Of a DNA stretch of 64,000 nucleotides, positions 29,557-35,358 are shown piece by piece; the stretch's first letter is position 1, and each line of letters begins with the position of its first letter. The notes under the pieces were generated by a model, which did not search any database, was not told where the DNA came from, and saw only the letters and a list, made by a program, of their open reading frames with translations. Origin of the DNA: Candidatus Gastranaerophilales bacterium (lineage in GTDB: Bacteria; Cyanobacteriota; Vampirovibrionia; Gastranaerophilales; Gastranaerophilaceae); contig CALUUK010000003.1 of the NCBI GenBank assembly GCA_944323955.1, positions 1-64,000 on the forward strand, in the 5' to 3' direction. The translations under genes were made by a program, and so were the position numbers.

Positions 29557-29931
29557 TTAGCAGAGGAATTTTTTTATATTCCGTATTATTCCTTTTAACT
29601 TTGTGGAATCAGCAACCAGAGCATTTTCATGATAAGGAATATAAGCATTTACTATATTTTCGGGAAGCTCTTCACCTTTATCAAGAGTATAAGCTATATA
29701 GTCAATATATTCATCCTGCTCCTTTTTATACATTTCATCTTTAGCTCTGATATCTTCATCCGCTTCAAGATGACAAAGCGCATGCCAGGCAGCAATTATA
29801 GTTTTATCATCACAATCCTGCGGAAAAGCATTAAGCGCTTCTCTGACGGAGAGTCTTTTTGTAAGAACCGAAATATATAACCCCGAAACCTGTTTTCGCA
29901 GATTTGAATAATCTACACTTTCGTTCCGCAT
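29557..29931 (-). CDS. Hypothetical protein coupled to a BlaI-type repressor
   Basis: A 124-residue soluble, acidic, mainly helical protein with no recognised family. The pattern ALNAFPQDCDDKTIIAAWHALCHLEADEDI is helix-rich; IRAKDEMYKKEQDEYIDYIAYTLDKG looks like an amphipathic pair. It overlaps the repressor gene by 19 bases and has no transmembrane segment, so it is not a BlaR1/M56 sensor protease. It could be a sensor or partner of the repressor by position alone. Confidence 0.65.
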   Translation of the reverse strand: MRNESVDYSNLRKQVSGLYISVLTKRLSVREALNAFPQDCDDKTIIAAWHALCHLEADEDIRAKDEMYKKEQDEYIDYIAYTLDKGEELPENIVNAYIPYHENALVADSTKLKGIIRNIKKFLC

Positions 29932-30260
29932 TGTTTTTCCAGTGCCCGCATTAATGAATTTATATCATTATTAAAAAATTGTCCCGCCAGCTTGCTGATA
30001 GCCGTTGCAGCCATTTCAGCGCGGCTTTCCACGGACTTATAACAGAATTTTTTTCCGAACTTTTGTCTTTTTAAAAGATCTTTTTCCACAAGTCTGTCCA
30101 TTACTGTTTTTATTGTTGTATAAGCTCTTATGTTTCCGCTGTTATTAATTTCTTCCAATACTTCACTTACGGAAATATCTTTTGTACTTATGCCGTTTTC
30201 TTCCATTGTCCATACGGCATTCATGATTTCATTTTCTAAAGTTCCGTGTGCATACGCCAT
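29913..30260 (-). CDS. BlaI/MecI/CopY-family transcriptional repressor
   Basis: A 115-residue winged-helix protein: LENEIMNAVW at the N-terminus, then RAYTTIKTVMDRLVEKDLLKRQKFGKKFCYK, the recognition helix and wing of the family. Members repress by binding inverted repeats in promoters and are usually inactivated by a BlaR1/MecR1 protease or by copper. No such protease is here. AAGGAT precedes the ATG. The regulated gene is unknown; autoregulation of this two-gene unit is the default guess. Confidence 0.85.
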   Translation of the reverse strand: MAYAHGTLENEIMNAVWTMEENGISTKDISVSEVLEEINNSGNIRAYTTIKTVMDRLVEKDLLKRQKFGKKFCYKSVESRAEMAATAISKLAGQFFNNDINSLMRALEKQCGTKV

Positions 30261-30370: not shown

Positions 30371-33300
30371 TTAAAATTCTTGTATTTTTATTAAATCATT
30401 AGAAAAAAGTCCGCTGATAAATTCTGATATCTTAACATTTTTTCTTGTCTTATAATGCTTTGCGGTTGATAAAAATAACCCGTATTTTGCACGTGTAATA
30501 CCAACATATAAAAGCCTCAATGTTTCAAGAGCCTGCTCTTTTTTTAGTTCATCGGGCATTTTAATTTTATTGTTTTGTACAAAGCATCTTACCGTTTCCA
30601 CAAAATGACCTCCGCTTTTAAGTTTTACATTTTGTATTTCAACCGGATAATTATCTTCATTTAGTTGAGGAATAAATACATAATCAAATTCATCACCTTT
30701 TGATTTATGCATAGTCATTATATGAACGGCATTCGACGATTTTTTTACGTCATCTTCAAAAAATTTGTACGTGCTCATTGGCTTTTGAGAATAATAATCA
30801 ATCGTTTTAAGTAAATCATTTCCGGCATTATTTTCTTTTAACCGCCTTATAAATGTGGATATGAGATATGTGTTGGACTTATCAGCCGAACTTTTTGAAT
30901 AATATAACCCTATATTAAAAGCTATATCTTCGGGATTTTTATCGGCATTGTTAAGCCAGTATTCAATATCCCAATATAATTGAGACAATATTTCACTGTC
31001 CAAATCATCGGGATTAATATTTATAAAGGGAATCTTTAAATCTTCAAAGAACTTTTCCGCCGGTTGTTTCTCCTTTATTGAAGAATTTTGAAGATATAAC
31101 ATTGCCAGTTCTTTTATCAATTTATTATTTAAAGGATTTTCAATAATATTTAATACATTAATTATATATTTATATATTTCCTTCTGTGATAACAAATCCG
31201 TCCTTACTGTCGTTTTTATTCCGTTCAATGTTATAAATTCATTATATCTGTTTACATCTGCATTAAGCCGTAAAAGTATAGCTATAGAAGCATTCGGATT
31301 TTCTTTTTGTATTTCTTTTATTCGTTTAATGATAAAATCTTTTTCTTCTTTTTCCGTTTCTAATATACTGTATTCAGGTAAAGTATCACTTTTTGGATTA
31401 TCATCCGTACCTTGTATTTTAATTGAGTAAAAAGCCTGTTTTTTATCTTCATCTTTACACGCGGATTCAATCATTCTGTTTGCAAGCGTATATATCGGAA
31501 AAGCACATCTCTGCGATGAAACCATCTCGATTTTTTTATTTGAGTAAATGAAATCTTTAAACGAATCGGGATTTGAATTTGTAAAAGTTGCAGTTATTGA
31601 TTGATTAATATCTCCGCATCTTAAAACATTATTATACCCCGCACTTAAAAGATTTATAAGAGTTTGCTGGATTTCGGTTGAATCCTGAGCTTCATCTTCT
31701 ATAATATATCTGCATAAATTTTGATAATATTCCCTTATATCTTTGTTATCCTTTAAAAGAGAGACCGCAAACTTTAACATATCGTCGTAATCTATAAGAT
31801 TTTTTTGTTTTAAGACAATATTATATTCTTCTAAAAATCTGTAAAATTCTCGAATATCACTGTATTTTGGTTCTAAATTACACTTTTTATCAGCAAGTTT
31901 TACAATTGAAATACATTTTAAATAGTTATCATATTTATCATCCTGTATTTTCAACTTGTAAAAAAGTTCTTTTATTATGCGCTCTTTCTCACTGTCATCA
32001 CAAATTTCAAATTTTTCATCCAATCCGACTTTTGCATAATTACCGTTTTCTTTGATAATCCTGAGCGCAAGCCCATGAATTGTTGAAATATTAGGAAGTT
32101 CGGCGCCGTCAGGAATACTTGTTTTAATACGTTCTTTGAAATTTTTTGCGGCAGATTCCATATATGTAAGAACAAAAATATTTTCTGGAGGAATTTTTGA
32201 ATTTATAAGTTTAACAACAAGCGCAAGTAATATAGTGGTTTTTCCCGCACCGGGAACAGCCATTATTCCCATCTTGCCTTTTTTATAGTCTAAAACAGGT
32301 TTCTGGTCATATCTCGGTATTATTTTAAAACCGGCATTTTTTTGTTCCGGAAATAATATAAAATCAGTCAGTCCGCCAAAATTTTCATTCCCCTCACTGT
32401 CATATATACTAGAATAAAATCTTATTTCTTTTTGCGCACAAAGCATTAACTTTCTTATAACACGCGCCGTTTTATCATTTGTATGTTTTATATTATCTTC
32501 AAAGCCGTATTCATTTTTTTTCAAATCTCTTGAAAACACCCATGCATTATATAATGTTCCGGTATCCTGCTTAATCCACTCTGAATTTGAAACATCAATC
32601 CACAGCTGATATCCGGTTTTTATAGAATAGTCAACGGATTTTTGCGGCGAAGAAATTATTACCTTATCAGGCTGAATTTTAAATGAATTTATCGGATTCT
32701 CACTTATTACACTGTTTTCCATCTGGATAATAAATTCAGCAGCAAAGTTATCAATTTTACCTGAAAATGCCTGTTCAAAAGTCTGCGCTTCTTTTAAAAG
32801 AAACTCGTATTTTTGAAGATTTTCAGGTTCAATATTCTCTTTAATAAGATTTTCATAAATTATTTTTATTTGTTCGGAAAGTAAATATCCGGTATTTTTC
32901 AGCGACTTTACTATGTTTTGCAGTTTTTTATATTTTGCATTATATACATCATCTGAAAAATTGAAATCAAATAATTCGGATATTTTAAAGTCTTTTATCA
33001 TCTTATGGCACTTTCTGTAAGGAATTTTAGACAAGTTAACCAGAAGACTTTTTATCTCATATTCACTGACATCTATATTATTTATCAATTTAAGAATTGA
33101 AATTATATGCTTTATCCCGCTTACACCGGATAATTTTTCGCTGCCCGAAACCGATTGAAATTCCAAATCGAAACCTGATGAACATTTTCTTATAAGTTCA
33201 CTTGATAAAGGTGAAATAACAGAAATGTCCCCGGGTTTCACACCCGTGCGTATAAGTTCTTTTATATCCAAAAAAACTTTTTCCAGCATATCCAAACGAT

Positions 33301-34186
33301 TAACATATCCGAAATGCTTTATATTTTCTATTTTTGTTTTCTTTCCTTCTTTAAAAACGGAAAACAAATTCTCTGCCGTCTTTGCATATACACTTTTATC
33401 GGATAAAACAATTTCTTTAGGAGAATATTTCAATTTAAAATCGGGAATTCCGTTTTTATATGCACAAAGATAGCCGCATCTTGATGAACCGTTCGAATCA
33501 TAAGCAATTATATAATCTTTGATTTGAGGCATGATAAAATCTGCAAATTGCCAGAAAATATAAGGCATTTCATCCGCATCATCAATGATTAAATATTTAA
33601 TACCGTTAAAATATCCCGTATTTTTATAAATTAACGGAAAAATCGCAGCCTGCCTCAAATAATCAAAACTTTTATACTCAATTGACCTTTGTTTATACCC
33701 GTAAATTGCTTTAAAAGCATCTTCGGCAAAAACTTCATTTACGAGCCGAGCCCGTTCTATAACTTCTTTATCTGACAGAGAATTTTGTACAATCAAAGAA
33801 TAACGTCTGAAAAGCTGGTGCAAGAGATTTATTTTTGAAATATAATCGCTGAAATCTGCATCTTTAATACTTTGTTTAAAAATATATTGCGAGACTTCAA
33901 GCCCGCATTGATTTAATACATCATTATCGGAATATTTTAAAAGCGATTTAATATATGAAGAATTATCCTTAAATGCATTGTAATAAAGCCCGTTTAATGT
34001 ATGTATTTCAGGCTTTTTTCCGGTACCTGCCGTTAAATAAAATTTATCGTCAAATAACGCCTTTTTATAAGGATTTAACACAACAAAAAGAATCTCACAC
34101 GGTAATACCCCCCGAGAAATAAGGCTATTATATTTTTCAATAATTATTTCGTTTGCCGAAGTATTTGAGCTTCTGTTTATAAGCAT
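30371..34186 (-). CDS. UvrD-type SF1 helicase with a second, degenerate SF1 module at its N-terminus
   Basis: The C-terminal half (from about residue 620 of 1271) is a complete UvrD/Rep-type helicase: AVPGAGKTT near 640, STIHGLALR, DYDDML, DEAQD near 830, GDINQSI, MHKSKGDEFDYV near 1159 and LLYVGITRAK near 1224. The first 600 residues repeat the same order in weakened form: LINRSSNTSA at the P-loop position without Gly or Lys, LFVVLNPYKKALF, HTLNGLYYNAF, LIIDDADE near 200 and IAYDSNGS. This recalls AddB, whose helicase half is inactive. No nuclease motif is evident. The ATG at 34186 is chosen because it starts the P-loop-like strand; a TTG at 34354 would prefix a hydrophobic AT-rich tail. Confidence 0.8.
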   Translation of the reverse strand: MLINRSSNTSANEIIIEKYNSLISRGVLPCEILFVVLNPYKKALFDDKFYLTAGTGKKPEIHTLNGLYYNAFKDNSSYIKSLLKYSDNDVLNQCGLEVSQYIFKQSIKDADFSDYISKINLLHQLFRRYSLIVQNSLSDKEVIERARLVNEVFAEDAFKAIYGYKQRSIEYKSFDYLRQAAIFPLIYKNTGYFNGIKYLIIDDADEMPYIFWQFADFIMPQIKDYIIAYDSNGSSRCGYLCAYKNGIPDFKLKYSPKEIVLSDKSVYAKTAENLFSVFKEGKKTKIENIKHFGYVNRLDMLEKVFLDIKELIRTGVKPGDISVISPLSSELIRKCSSGFDLEFQSVSGSEKLSGVSGIKHIISILKLINNIDVSEYEIKSLLVNLSKIPYRKCHKMIKDFKISELFDFNFSDDVYNAKYKKLQNIVKSLKNTGYLLSEQIKIIYENLIKENIEPENLQKYEFLLKEAQTFEQAFSGKIDNFAAEFIIQMENSVISENPINSFKIQPDKVIISSPQKSVDYSIKTGYQLWIDVSNSEWIKQDTGTLYNAWVFSRDLKKNEYGFEDNIKHTNDKTARVIRKLMLCAQKEIRFYSSIYDSEGNENFGGLTDFILFPEQKNAGFKIIPRYDQKPVLDYKKGKMGIMAVPGAGKTTILLALVVKLINSKIPPENIFVLTYMESAAKNFKERIKTSIPDGAELPNISTIHGLALRIIKENGNYAKVGLDEKFEICDDSEKERIIKELFYKLKIQDDKYDNYLKCISIVKLADKKCNLEPKYSDIREFYRFLEEYNIVLKQKNLIDYDDMLKFAVSLLKDNKDIREYYQNLCRYIIEDEAQDSTEIQQTLINLLSAGYNNVLRCGDINQSITATFTNSNPDSFKDFIYSNKKIEMVSSQRCAFPIYTLANRMIESACKDEDKKQAFYSIKIQGTDDNPKSDTLPEYSILETEKEEKDFIIKRIKEIQKENPNASIAILLRLNADVNRYNEFITLNGIKTTVRTDLLSQKEIYKYIINVLNIIENPLNNKLIKELAMLYLQNSSIKEKQPAEKFFEDLKIPFININPDDLDSEILSQLYWDIEYWLNNADKNPEDIAFNIGLYYSKSSADKSNTYLISTFIRRLKENNAGNDLLKTIDYYSQKPMSTYKFFEDDVKKSSNAVHIMTMHKSKGDEFDYVFIPQLNEDNYPVEIQNVKLKSGGHFVETVRCFVQNNKIKMPDELKKEQALETLRLLYVGITRAKYGLFLSTAKHYKTRKNVKISEFISGLFSNDLIKIQEF

Positions 34187-34461: not shown

Positions 34462-35358
34462 ATGGTTTTAAATTGTGTTTATACTGCGGAAACAGAACAG
34501 GAAACTTTATTAAATCCTTTATTTGCAGACAGCAGCCTTTCAAGTTATATCAAAAAGATTTTTAAGTATAAAAATCTAAGCATAGAAGAAGAACAAGATT
34601 GTGCCCGCCTTGCAAAAGAAGGAAACAAACAGGCAAAACAAAAATTAATAAAAGCAAATCTTAAACTTGTCGTAACCATAGCAAAAAAAGCCATACATTC
34701 AAGTAAATTACCCATGATTGATTTAATTCAGGAAGGAAACATCGGACTTATTGCTGCAATTGATAAATTTAATTGGAAATTCGGTTACAGATTTTCGACA
34801 TACGCATCATGGTGGATTAAACAGGCAATGTTTAAAGCCATTTCAGAGCAATCACACAGCGTAAAAATCCCTGTTTACATTCAAGAAACGCTTTCAAAGT
34901 ATTCAAAAGTTAAAGCTGAAATGGAAAAAGAAAATTGCACAAACATCAAAACAGAAGATGTTGCAAAGAAAATGAACATTGAACCCGAAAAAATAGATAA
35001 TTATCTTAATGCTTACAAAAAAACATTATCTTTGGAAGGTGATTTTGAAATAAATAACGGTTCGGAAGTAAGACTTGTTGATATTATTGAAGATAAAAAA
35101 GCATCGGTTCAACAAAAAATAGAATATGAATCAATGAAAAAAGAAGTTGTTTCCCTATTAAACAGCCTAAAAGACCGCGAACAAAAAGTAATTCTTTTAC
35201 ACTTCGGACTTGACGGCCAAGAGAAACAAACGCTTGAAGAAATAGGCAGGATATACGGCGTAACAAAAGAATGTATCAGACAAACAGAAACAAGAGCATT
35301 AAATAAACTGAGAAATGATTCTATGTCTTTAAACTTGCTTCAAACATATGTTTACTAA
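34462..35358 (+). CDS. Sigma-70 family RNA polymerase sigma factor, group 2 type
   Basis: The 298-residue protein has sigma regions 1.2 to 4.2 but no region 1.1 and no non-conserved insert. Region 2: LVVTIAKKAI, DLIQEGNIGLIAAIDKF, RFSTYASWWIKQAM. Region 3 follows, and region 4.2 shows TLEEIGRIYGVTKECIRQTETRALNKLR. It is shorter than a primary RpoD/SigA, so an alternative sigma of the cyanobacterial group 2 kind is likely. CAGGAG precedes the ATG and a terminator follows, making it monocistronic. The residue pattern at the -10 reading helix is standard, so it should see TATAAT-like promoters. Confidence 0.9.
   Translation: MVLNCVYTAETEQETLLNPLFADSSLSSYIKKIFKYKNLSIEEEQDCARLAKEGNKQAKQKLIKANLKLVVTIAKKAIHSSKLPMIDLIQEGNIGLIAAIDKFNWKFGYRFSTYASWWIKQAMFKAISEQSHSVKIPVYIQETLSKYSKVKAEMEKENCTNIKTEDVAKKMNIEPEKIDNYLNAYKKTLSLEGDFEINNGSEVRLVDIIEDKKASVQQKIEYESMKKEVVSLLNSLKDREQKVILLHFGLDGQEKQTLEEIGRIYGVTKECIRQTETRALNKLRNDSMSLNLLQTYVY

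Follow-up and report, generated by a model that had tools for sequence, protein, structure and literature searches.

A tandem SF1A helicase gene of Gastranaerophilales as the candidate fused core of an AddAB-like helicase-nuclease

In AdnAB, each of the two chains has a C-terminal nuclease of its own. AddAB consists of two subunits, each carrying a fused C-terminal nuclease domain. In AddB and RecC, inactivated N-terminal helicases read Chi, and AddB has a second ATP-binding site (PMC4824097). We have analyzed a gene from a Gastranaerophilales MAG in which a dead and a live helicase half are joined on one chain. Taken with an adjoining nuclease gene in relatives and a separate trio of genes in cyanobacteria, it looks like part of an overlooked, phylum-wide AddAB-like break-processing machine. 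In open-access PMC text we found neither the pseudo-helicase nor a three-part system described before. Our preferred reading, to which we give a probability of roughly 0.6, is that the gene encodes the core, pseudo-helicase and motor fused on one chain, of a helicase-nuclease resembling AddAB, with the nuclease acting in trans.

The tandem gene and its two modules

The window, that is, the whole stretch of DNA analyzed (64,000 nucleotides), had previously been read from its sequence without database searches. That sequence-only reading placed a tandem SF1 helicase with a dead N-terminal motor at 30371-34186. The coordinates hold, but the strand has to be corrected to minus; the plus-strand reading was rejected on account of stop codons all along it. 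An alternative TTG start would move the ORF start to 34354, although the ATG at 34186 agrees with the conserved start of the orthologues. The features discussed below are as follows.

30371..34186, minus: tandem SF1A helicase gene, P0001; 1271 aa, ATG at 34186, full-length orthologues
32327..34186, minus: N-module, residues 1-620; SF1A-fold pseudo-helicase, AddB/RecC-like (PF00580 in homologues, Foldseek, orthology to a stand-alone cyanobacterial protein)
34151..34177, minus: P-loop position, residues 4-12, NRSSNTSAN; Gly and Lys missing, where outgroup orthologues have EGPLGSGKT (alignment)
33569..33595, minus: Walker B / motif II position, residues 198-206, YLIIDDADE; D205 and E206 invariant in 86/86 (alignment)
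33458..33502, minus: motif III replacement, residues 229-243, YDSNGSSRCGYLCAY; family-specific, stands where GDxxQ would be; G233 and G238 in 86/86, R236 in 85/86, Gln lost
32630..32662, minus: motif V position, residues 509-519, around VIISSPQKSVD; Q515, K516 and D519 invariant in 86/86
30374..32326, minus: C-module, residues 621-1271; intact UvrD-like SF1A motor (PF00580, UvrD_C), in a clade apart from PcrA/AddA
32234..32260, minus: C-module P-loop, residues 643-651, AVPGAGKTT; intact
31682..31699, minus: C-module Walker B, residues 830-835, EDEAQD; intact
30488..30508, minus: C-module motif VI (arginine finger), residues 1227-1233, YVGITRA; intact
29560..30260, minus: two downstream genes, an unknown of 124 aa and a BlaI/Penicillinase_R-type protein of 115 aa; not nucleases, conserved in the genus, standing where other genera have the PD-(D/E)XK nuclease gene

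Neighbors in the window include a sigma factor, an S1 protein, a BlaI-type regulator and a metallo-beta-lactamase fold protein. These are of housekeeping type, so the local context is uninformative on DNA repair.

The second half had been called intact, and this stands. Residues 621-1255 match PF00580 (E 9.9e-47) and UvrD_C (E 4.1e-20), and the motifs AVPGAGKTT, DEAQDS, GDINQ, HKSKGDEF and YVGITRA are all present, a complete set by which the C-module is predicted to be an SF1A motor of the active type. Among named families it is closest to PcrA/Rep, although the protein does not pass the pcrA model (174 bits against a cut-off of 911) or the addA_Gpos model (96.6 bits against 707.65) and gives no AddB match. 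In trees whose reference AddAB came from the same class only, the C-modules form their own clade, outside AddA and outside the PcrA of the same genomes. The fused C-halves are a single clade (support 97/94), and the motor clade including Cyanobacteriia orthologues is separated from PcrA (100/98). The window's genome also encodes its own PcrA.

The N-module of the window protein taken alone has no credible Pfam match, whereas 14 of 40 homologous N-halves match PF00580 (best 3.3e-10). Searching PDB sequences with N-half profiles returned chance-level matches only, and the NCBIfam search with N-halves gave nothing useful; the SF1 assignment thus leans on the homologues' Pfam matches, Foldseek and profile comparison. 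An AlphaFold2 model of the N-module, built from a shallow alignment of 8 sequences (mean pLDDT 62, pTM 0.42), matches UvrD, PcrA, AdnA and AddB over its full length (best Foldseek E 9e-15; AddB chain 2.8e-12), with AdnA and AdnB both among the matches. An SF1 fold, and not an unrelated one, was therefore recovered for this half. In profile comparison AddB is close to the N-half (probability 97.0, global alignment over 583 columns). The analogy with AddB and RecC drawn earlier stands. A model of residues 1-1200 (pLDDT 46, pTM 0.34) is too poor to show how the modules pack. Within-genus pairs give a dN/dS of 0.08-0.27 for the N-half, mostly 0.1-0.2, indicative of purifying selection; judged by these values the N-module is constrained and not junk. 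Since nearly all same-genus genomes also carry the gene at full length, the observation lies far beyond chance.

Graded motif loss and a proposed nuclease partner

Motif status was taken from an alignment of 86 orthologues. NRSSNTSAN of the window protein aligns with EGPLGSGKT, so that the earlier assignments of NRSSNTSA as the P-loop site and of LIIDDADE were upheld. The motif III Gln and the motif VI Arg are missing from the N-module in all 86 orthologues (the window's motif VI position reads RKLMLCA), which, with the loss of the P-loop Gly and Lys, agrees with an N-terminal motor that is dead. Seven residues, D205, E206, G233, G238, Q515, K516 and D519, are nevertheless invariant. The dead P-loop itself is true of the window but is not a general trait: the N-module P-loop is intact in 22/26 orthologues outside f1, the window's family, and in 0/60 inside it. 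Further families of the order, and orders beyond it, keep GPLGSGKT, the form of f9, while motifs III and VI are gone everywhere, and the dead P-loop is thus a lineage-specific late step. Within f1, genera other than the window's have GDLSTNKT at this position. Decay is graded, and the P-loop was lost at least three times, one of them in Gastranaerophilaceae. Arranged by state, from P-loop intact to Gly lost and then Lys lost, the orthologues make up a natural series in which a motor domain is switched off while selection still maintains its fold; the step from AddB to RecC is repeated no fewer than three times within a single class. The P-loop Lys is kept in 21/24 N-modules with an adjacent nuclease versus 11/36 without, an association confounded by phylogeny.

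The sequence-only reading saw no nuclease. This holds for the window's genome, in that P0001 has no nuclease domain and the small nuclease described here was not found in the window's genus, but it fails for relatives. In 37 of 58 orthologues outside the genus, the next gene downstream on the same strand encodes a small stand-alone AddB/Cas4-type PD-(D/E)XK nuclease, an adjacency seen in families f1, f3, f4, f7, f9 and f15. This protein matches PF12705 and has G-R-x-D ... D-(W/Y)-K-T with an AddB/Cas4-like cysteine pattern; its profile scores 98.2 against the AddB nuclease and 3.6 against the AddA nuclease. In relatives its cysteines may be placed to bind an AddB-type Fe-S cluster, which takes four, with the pattern partly lost in several cyanobacterial members. 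The sole PDDEXK_1 protein found in the window's genome is P0002, a UvrD-nuclease of 1045 aa. As a strict stand-in for the small nuclease P0002 is unsupported, given that some f1 genomes carry both and one (G060) carries the small one only.

We propose that the C-module is an ATP-driven 3'-5' SF1A motor and that the N-module, a non-hydrolysing SF1A fold, would serve as its fixed DNA-binding and strand-splitting partner, like AddB and RecC. On the same analogy, it may inspect the strand for recombination signals, in the manner of a Chi reader. The nuclease would be supplied in trans by the small AddB/Cas4-type protein, usually from the next gene, and we infer that the parts form a complex that processes DNA ends. 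The early N-module was probably still ATP-binding, with P-loop and DDxDE intact and motifs III and VI gone, as in B. subtilis AddB; it would later have become RecC-like by loss of the P-loop in Gastranaerophilaceae and at least two further times. The window's genus has gone furthest, having lost both the P-loop residues and the small nuclease, and its protein may act as helicase or translocase only, or may borrow a nuclease, for which P0002 is a candidate.

Distribution in the phylum and alternative readings

Each module is orthologous to a separate stand-alone protein of the phylum. In a distant relative (L169) pseudo-helicase, motor and nuclease are three overlapping genes in an operon, and L171 has a motor/nuclease operon. 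Cyanobacteriia hold orthologues of all three with the genes scattered, so joint action there is suggested by the fusion and operons of relatives. The stand-alone cyanobacterial pseudo-helicase has AddB as its best outside match in profile comparison (93.7, versus 27.5 for PcrA and 8.6 for AddA). The fused N-halves are one clade (100/98). On the simplest view the phylum started with three separate genes, and a single fusion of pseudo-helicase and motor would have given rise to the ancestor of the fused proteins of Vampirovibrionia.

The pseudo-helicase, a conserved protein without a Pfam or NCBIfam match, occurs in 243 of the 292 phylum genomes. It and RecC come close to excluding each other: both occur in 5 of the 292, RecC only in 35, the pseudo-helicase only in 238 and neither in 14. 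The 35 are small genomes, and the exclusion rests largely on clade f41, which makes it effectively a single event. A search for RecC (PF04257), as the sequence-only reading had advised, gave no match in the window's genome. Within the same class, where both systems thus stand side by side, classical AddAB was found in f8 and f13, and alongside the fused gene in one f15 genome (G129) and possibly one of f9 (G082). A 1090-aa protein (L005), initially an AddB candidate, turned out to be an unrelated helicase. S. elongatus is stated to have AddAB (PMC10269773), and the three-part machine may accordingly have company in some cyanobacteria.

We tentatively suggest, at slightly less than an even chance, that Cyanobacteriota ancestrally relied, and still mainly rely, on the three-part helicase-nuclease for processing double-strand-break ends, that its plan departs from those of RecBCD, AddAB and AdnAB, that RecBCD displaced it in f41 (small genomes, probably marine picocyanobacteria), and that it became fused and eroded in gut Gastranaerophilales. 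If true, this would account for how breaks are resected in those model cyanobacteria that are said to have neither RecBC nor AddAB, and in which the pseudo-helicase would then be a so far unread Chi scanner. Being linked to motor and nuclease by fusion and operons, the pseudo-helicase is a candidate directly testable in Synechocystis or Nostoc.

The best surviving alternative, which we nonetheless consider unlikely, is a helicase or translocase without nuclease duty, working, for example, in the restart of forks or the control of recombination as PcrA/Rep do, in which the dead module is only an accessory domain that makes the motor more processive or takes the place of the second UvrD of a dimer. 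The lack of a nuclease within or beside the gene in the window's genus and the nearness of the C-module to PcrA/Rep fit this; for that genus alone it could still be right. It accords poorly with the class-wide operon with an AddB/Cas4-type nuclease, with the three-gene operon of L169 and with a C-module clade apart from PcrA in a genome that has a separate PcrA. Somewhat less probable again is a divergent AddAB proper, in which the helicase parts of AddB and AddA are fused and the nuclease domains split off. The global alignment of N-half and AddB, an AddB-type small nuclease and a B-then-A module order shared with the addB-addA genes of L211-L213 would suit such an origin. Yet the N-modules and cyanobacterial pseudo-helicases form a clade outside AddB (100/100; reference AddAB from the same class only), the C-modules do not group with AddA, and the protein falls short of the curated AddA/AddB cut-offs. 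A common origin of the modules and AddAB deeper than the phylum is possible. The earlier proposal of an AddAB-like machine on one chain thus survives, though not as AddAB itself, since the modules have phylum-wide orthologues of their own; its observation is confirmed, its interpretation partly supported, and it was largely right.

Membership in a Gabija-like or other phage-defence system is very improbable: PADLOC GajB (UvrD helicase) models do match the C-module (E 2e-45), but they match UvrD-like motors generally and score P0002 above P0001, no GajA neighbor was seen in the window, and the gene is vertically inherited and near-universal in class and phylum, with housekeeping neighbors. The idea that a single UvrD was recently duplicated within the gene and that one copy then decayed can be dismissed, for although the N- and C-half profiles align (98.7, 446 columns), two trees contradict it and each half has a separate phylum-wide orthologue, so the modules diverged before fusion.

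Comparison with known systems

The fused core with its nuclease in trans, our preferred reading, shares with AddAB a dead SF1A fold, an active SF1A motor and an AddB/Cas4-type nuclease, and in most of the phylum the N-module keeps a P-loop without motifs III and VI, as does AddB (PMC4824097). It differs in that both helicase modules lie on one chain, in a clade of their own, in that the nuclease is single, separate and small, and in that an AddA-type nuclease is missing. The dead module of the window's family resembles RecC in having no P-loop; in contrast to RecBCD, the window's genome has no match to RecC, and the RecC-bearing clade is without the pseudo-helicase. AdnAB is similar in its paired SF1A modules and in the Foldseek matches, whereas P0001 has no fused nuclease. 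PcrA, UvrD and Rep share the fold and motifs of the C-module, which however forms a separate clade and is permanently linked to a pseudo-helicase. UvrD/Cas4-like operons and fusions (pfam12705; PMC5704561) likewise set a UvrD-like motor beside, or fuse it to, a Cas4-like PDDEXK_1 nuclease, and P0002 is such a fusion; the parts of that survey consulted here describe no pseudo-helicase module, which here is a third, phylum-wide component.

The fused gene and its N-terminal module

The sequence-only reading had described a tandem SF1 helicase with a dead N-terminal module and an intact second half. The gene and two conserved neighbors are:

34186 to 30371, minus strand: tandem helicase gene, 1271 aa (open reading frame and translation)
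34462-35355, plus strand: sigma-70 family factor, divergent, upstream of the tandem gene in the genus and in several other families of the order (loci L046, L047, L048, L051)
29560-29931, minus strand: 124-aa protein without a Pfam match, directly downstream of a BlaI-type gene, conserved throughout the genus

A Pfam scan bore out the second half, with residues 621-1255 forming a complete UvrD-like motor (PF00580, E 9.9e-47; UvrD_C). The window N-half alone (residues 1-620) gave no credible Pfam match; matches to the UvrD N-terminal model came from 14 of 40 homologous N-halves, the best at 3.3e-10. An AlphaFold2 model of the window N-half (pLDDT 62, pTM 0.42) returned full-length structural matches to UvrD, PcrA, AdnA and the AddB chain of AddAB (E 9e-15 to 1e-11), in agreement with an SF1 fold for the dead module. 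Because the TM-scores of these matches were only 0.35-0.44, the fold class of the modeled N-half is clear and the predicted relative placement of its domains is unreliable.

Orthologues were gathered from the genus, family, order and class, and 86 were aligned. The P-loop (EGPLGSGKT and similar) was intact in 22 of 26 N-modules outside the window's family, f1, and in 0 of 60 inside it; the four outside exceptions were L049, L051 and L052, from a single order-level branch (family f6), and L118 (family f14). Members of f1 outside the window's genus mostly retain Lys-Thr with the glycine gone (GDLSTNKT). The window N-module reads NRSSNTSAN at this position, and the absence of both Gly and Lys was thus confirmed by alignment against the EGPLGSGKT of outgroup orthologues. 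All aligned N-modules lack the motif VI arginine and carry a family-specific signature, GxxRxGYL, in place of motif III. Since these motifs are lost, yet D205, E206, G233, G238, Q515, K516 and D519 are invariant (86/86) and N-half dN/dS within the genus is 0.08-0.27, we infer that the fold is retained even as the nucleotide pocket decays, which parallels the step between AddB and RecC.

A DUF559 (VSR-like endonuclease) domain was found in the N-module of three orthologues from two genera (E 8e-36, 2e-30, 3e-35):

L075:5318-10057: orthologue with DUF559 insert
L076:5054-9508: orthologue with DUF559 insert
L077:4592-9031: orthologue with DUF559 insert

The insert is in-frame, roughly 180-300 aa, at an identical site in all three just past the motif III position, and the DUF559 domain within it is flanked by repeats such as PPPNPLPQGAG. 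It looks like a mobile in-frame element; a similar short insert occurs in the nuclease gene of L076. Genome G247 has two fused-gene copies (ORFs of 1289 and 1132 aa, contigs C28 and C18), reflecting either duplication or a mixed bin.

A small nuclease and its loss in the genus

In many families, a PDDEXK_1 search of 36 class genomes picked up short ORFs (205-306 aa) that follow directly on the tandem gene. When loci were read, this nuclease proved to be the next gene on the same strand for 37 of the 58 orthologues from other genera (four of those without it sit at or near a contig edge), usually overlapping or spaced by tens of bases. In families f2, f6 and f14 and one f3 genome it is encoded at another place in the genome. 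It has the motifs G-R-x-D ... D-W-K-T and Q...Y, its four cysteines form a Cas4/AddB-like pattern, and in profile comparison it scored 98.2 against the AddB nuclease and 99.0 against that of P0002, versus 3.6 against the AddA nuclease. P0002 is a second protein of the window's genome:

L058:4432-7566 (G000 contig C5), minus strand: P0002, 1045 aa, a UvrD helicase whose C-terminal part is a PDDEXK nuclease of Cas4/AddB type, cysteine pattern retained

The small nuclease was not found in any of 39 genomes searched in the window's genus, where PDDEXK_1 matches are large ORFs, mostly 1020-1090 aa helicase-nucleases related to P0002; P0002 itself is the only PDDEXK_1 protein of the window's genome at E 1e-3. 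The earlier suggestion of a machine without a visible nuclease holds for the window's genome; in relatives the adjoining gene encodes one.

Within f1, the P-loop lysine is retained in 21 of 24 orthologues with an adjacent nuclease and in 11 of the 36 that lack one there (Fisher p 1.6e-5). This hints that nucleotide binding may have served coupling to the nuclease, but the association could also come from shared ancestry. In the window's genus the lysine is gone in most members and the small nuclease in all.

Separate orthologues, fusion and distribution

A phylum search with N-half profiles recovered stand-alone homologues, mostly 660-780 aa, in other classes (621 positions aligned, profile probability 100, E 2.7e-43); three that were scanned had no Pfam or NCBIfam match. 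A RuBisCO large-subunit gene lies near the copy at L159, so photosynthetic cyanobacteria are among the carriers. At one locus all three parts are separate genes:

L169: three overlapping genes in one direction, encoding pseudo-helicase (683 aa), motor (728 aa) and nuclease (335 aa)

At L171 motor and nuclease lie together, with the pseudo-helicase elsewhere in the genome. A second UvrD-like protein (739-810 aa) occurs in 13/13 Cyanobacteriia-type genomes tested, scoring 210-325 bits with the C-half profile versus 91-154 for PcrA where both were listed, and a small nuclease homologue in 12 of the same 13. Among cyanobacterial small nucleases (L173, L177, L178, L179, L180), several lack part of the C-terminal cysteine set and others retain it, suggesting repeated loss of a presumed Fe-S cluster.

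In a 51-row tree, the fused C-halves, the L169 motor and the cyanobacterial second UvrD-like proteins formed one clade (100/98) that excludes PcrA, AddA and P0002; the L171 motor fell outside on a long branch, its placement unsure. In a 35-row tree with AddAB references from one class only, N-modules and stand-alone pseudo-helicases formed one clade apart from AddB, and the fused N-halves were monophyletic (100/98). A single fusion followed by vertical descent is the simplest account of these trees.

Of the 292 phylum genomes, 40 have RecC (PF04257): 35 belong to one family of 1.6-3.7 Mb genomes, f41, and five lie outside it. At E 1e-10 the pseudo-helicase was present in 0 of the 35 RecC-bearing f41 genomes and in 238 of 252 RecC-free phylum genomes, counts that include MAGs and are subject to their incompleteness. 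Because the 35 belong to one family, the exclusion is in effect one replacement. We take f41 to be marine Prochlorococcus/Synechococcus, judging by its genome sizes and by the published restriction of recBCD largely to that group (PMC5101192). Families f8 and f13 have classical AddAB pairs and no fused gene, and f15 genome G129 has both; addB-addA gene pairs lie at L211, L212, L213 and L215 (f8, f13, f15), mostly in the absence of a fused gene. S. elongatus is stated to have AddAB (PMC10269773). In five f12 genomes (G062, G068, G074, G080, G085; 0/5) searches for the fused gene and for RecC were both negative, and a PDDEXK_1 search of four of the five gave a short match in G074 only.

Proposed mechanism and relation to known systems

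By homology, the C-module would pull 3'-5' on one strand. The N-module, predicted to be unable to hydrolyze ATP, would take the part of AddB/RecC by holding or guiding the separated strand; the inactivated helicase folds of AddB and RecC scan for Chi (PMC4824097). Where the P-loop is kept, as it is in most of the phylum, the N-module may bind ATP as a switch, like AddB. The small nuclease is predicted to trim strands.

The fused protein likely works like AddAB. Tests of the window protein for the fused nucleases and two-subunit make-up of AddAB, for its curated cut-offs and for membership of its clade (AddAB references from one class) were all negative, and it is therefore not classed as AddAB. 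Judged from its sequence, it is a previously unclassed variant within the AddAB/RecBCD/AdnAB kind.
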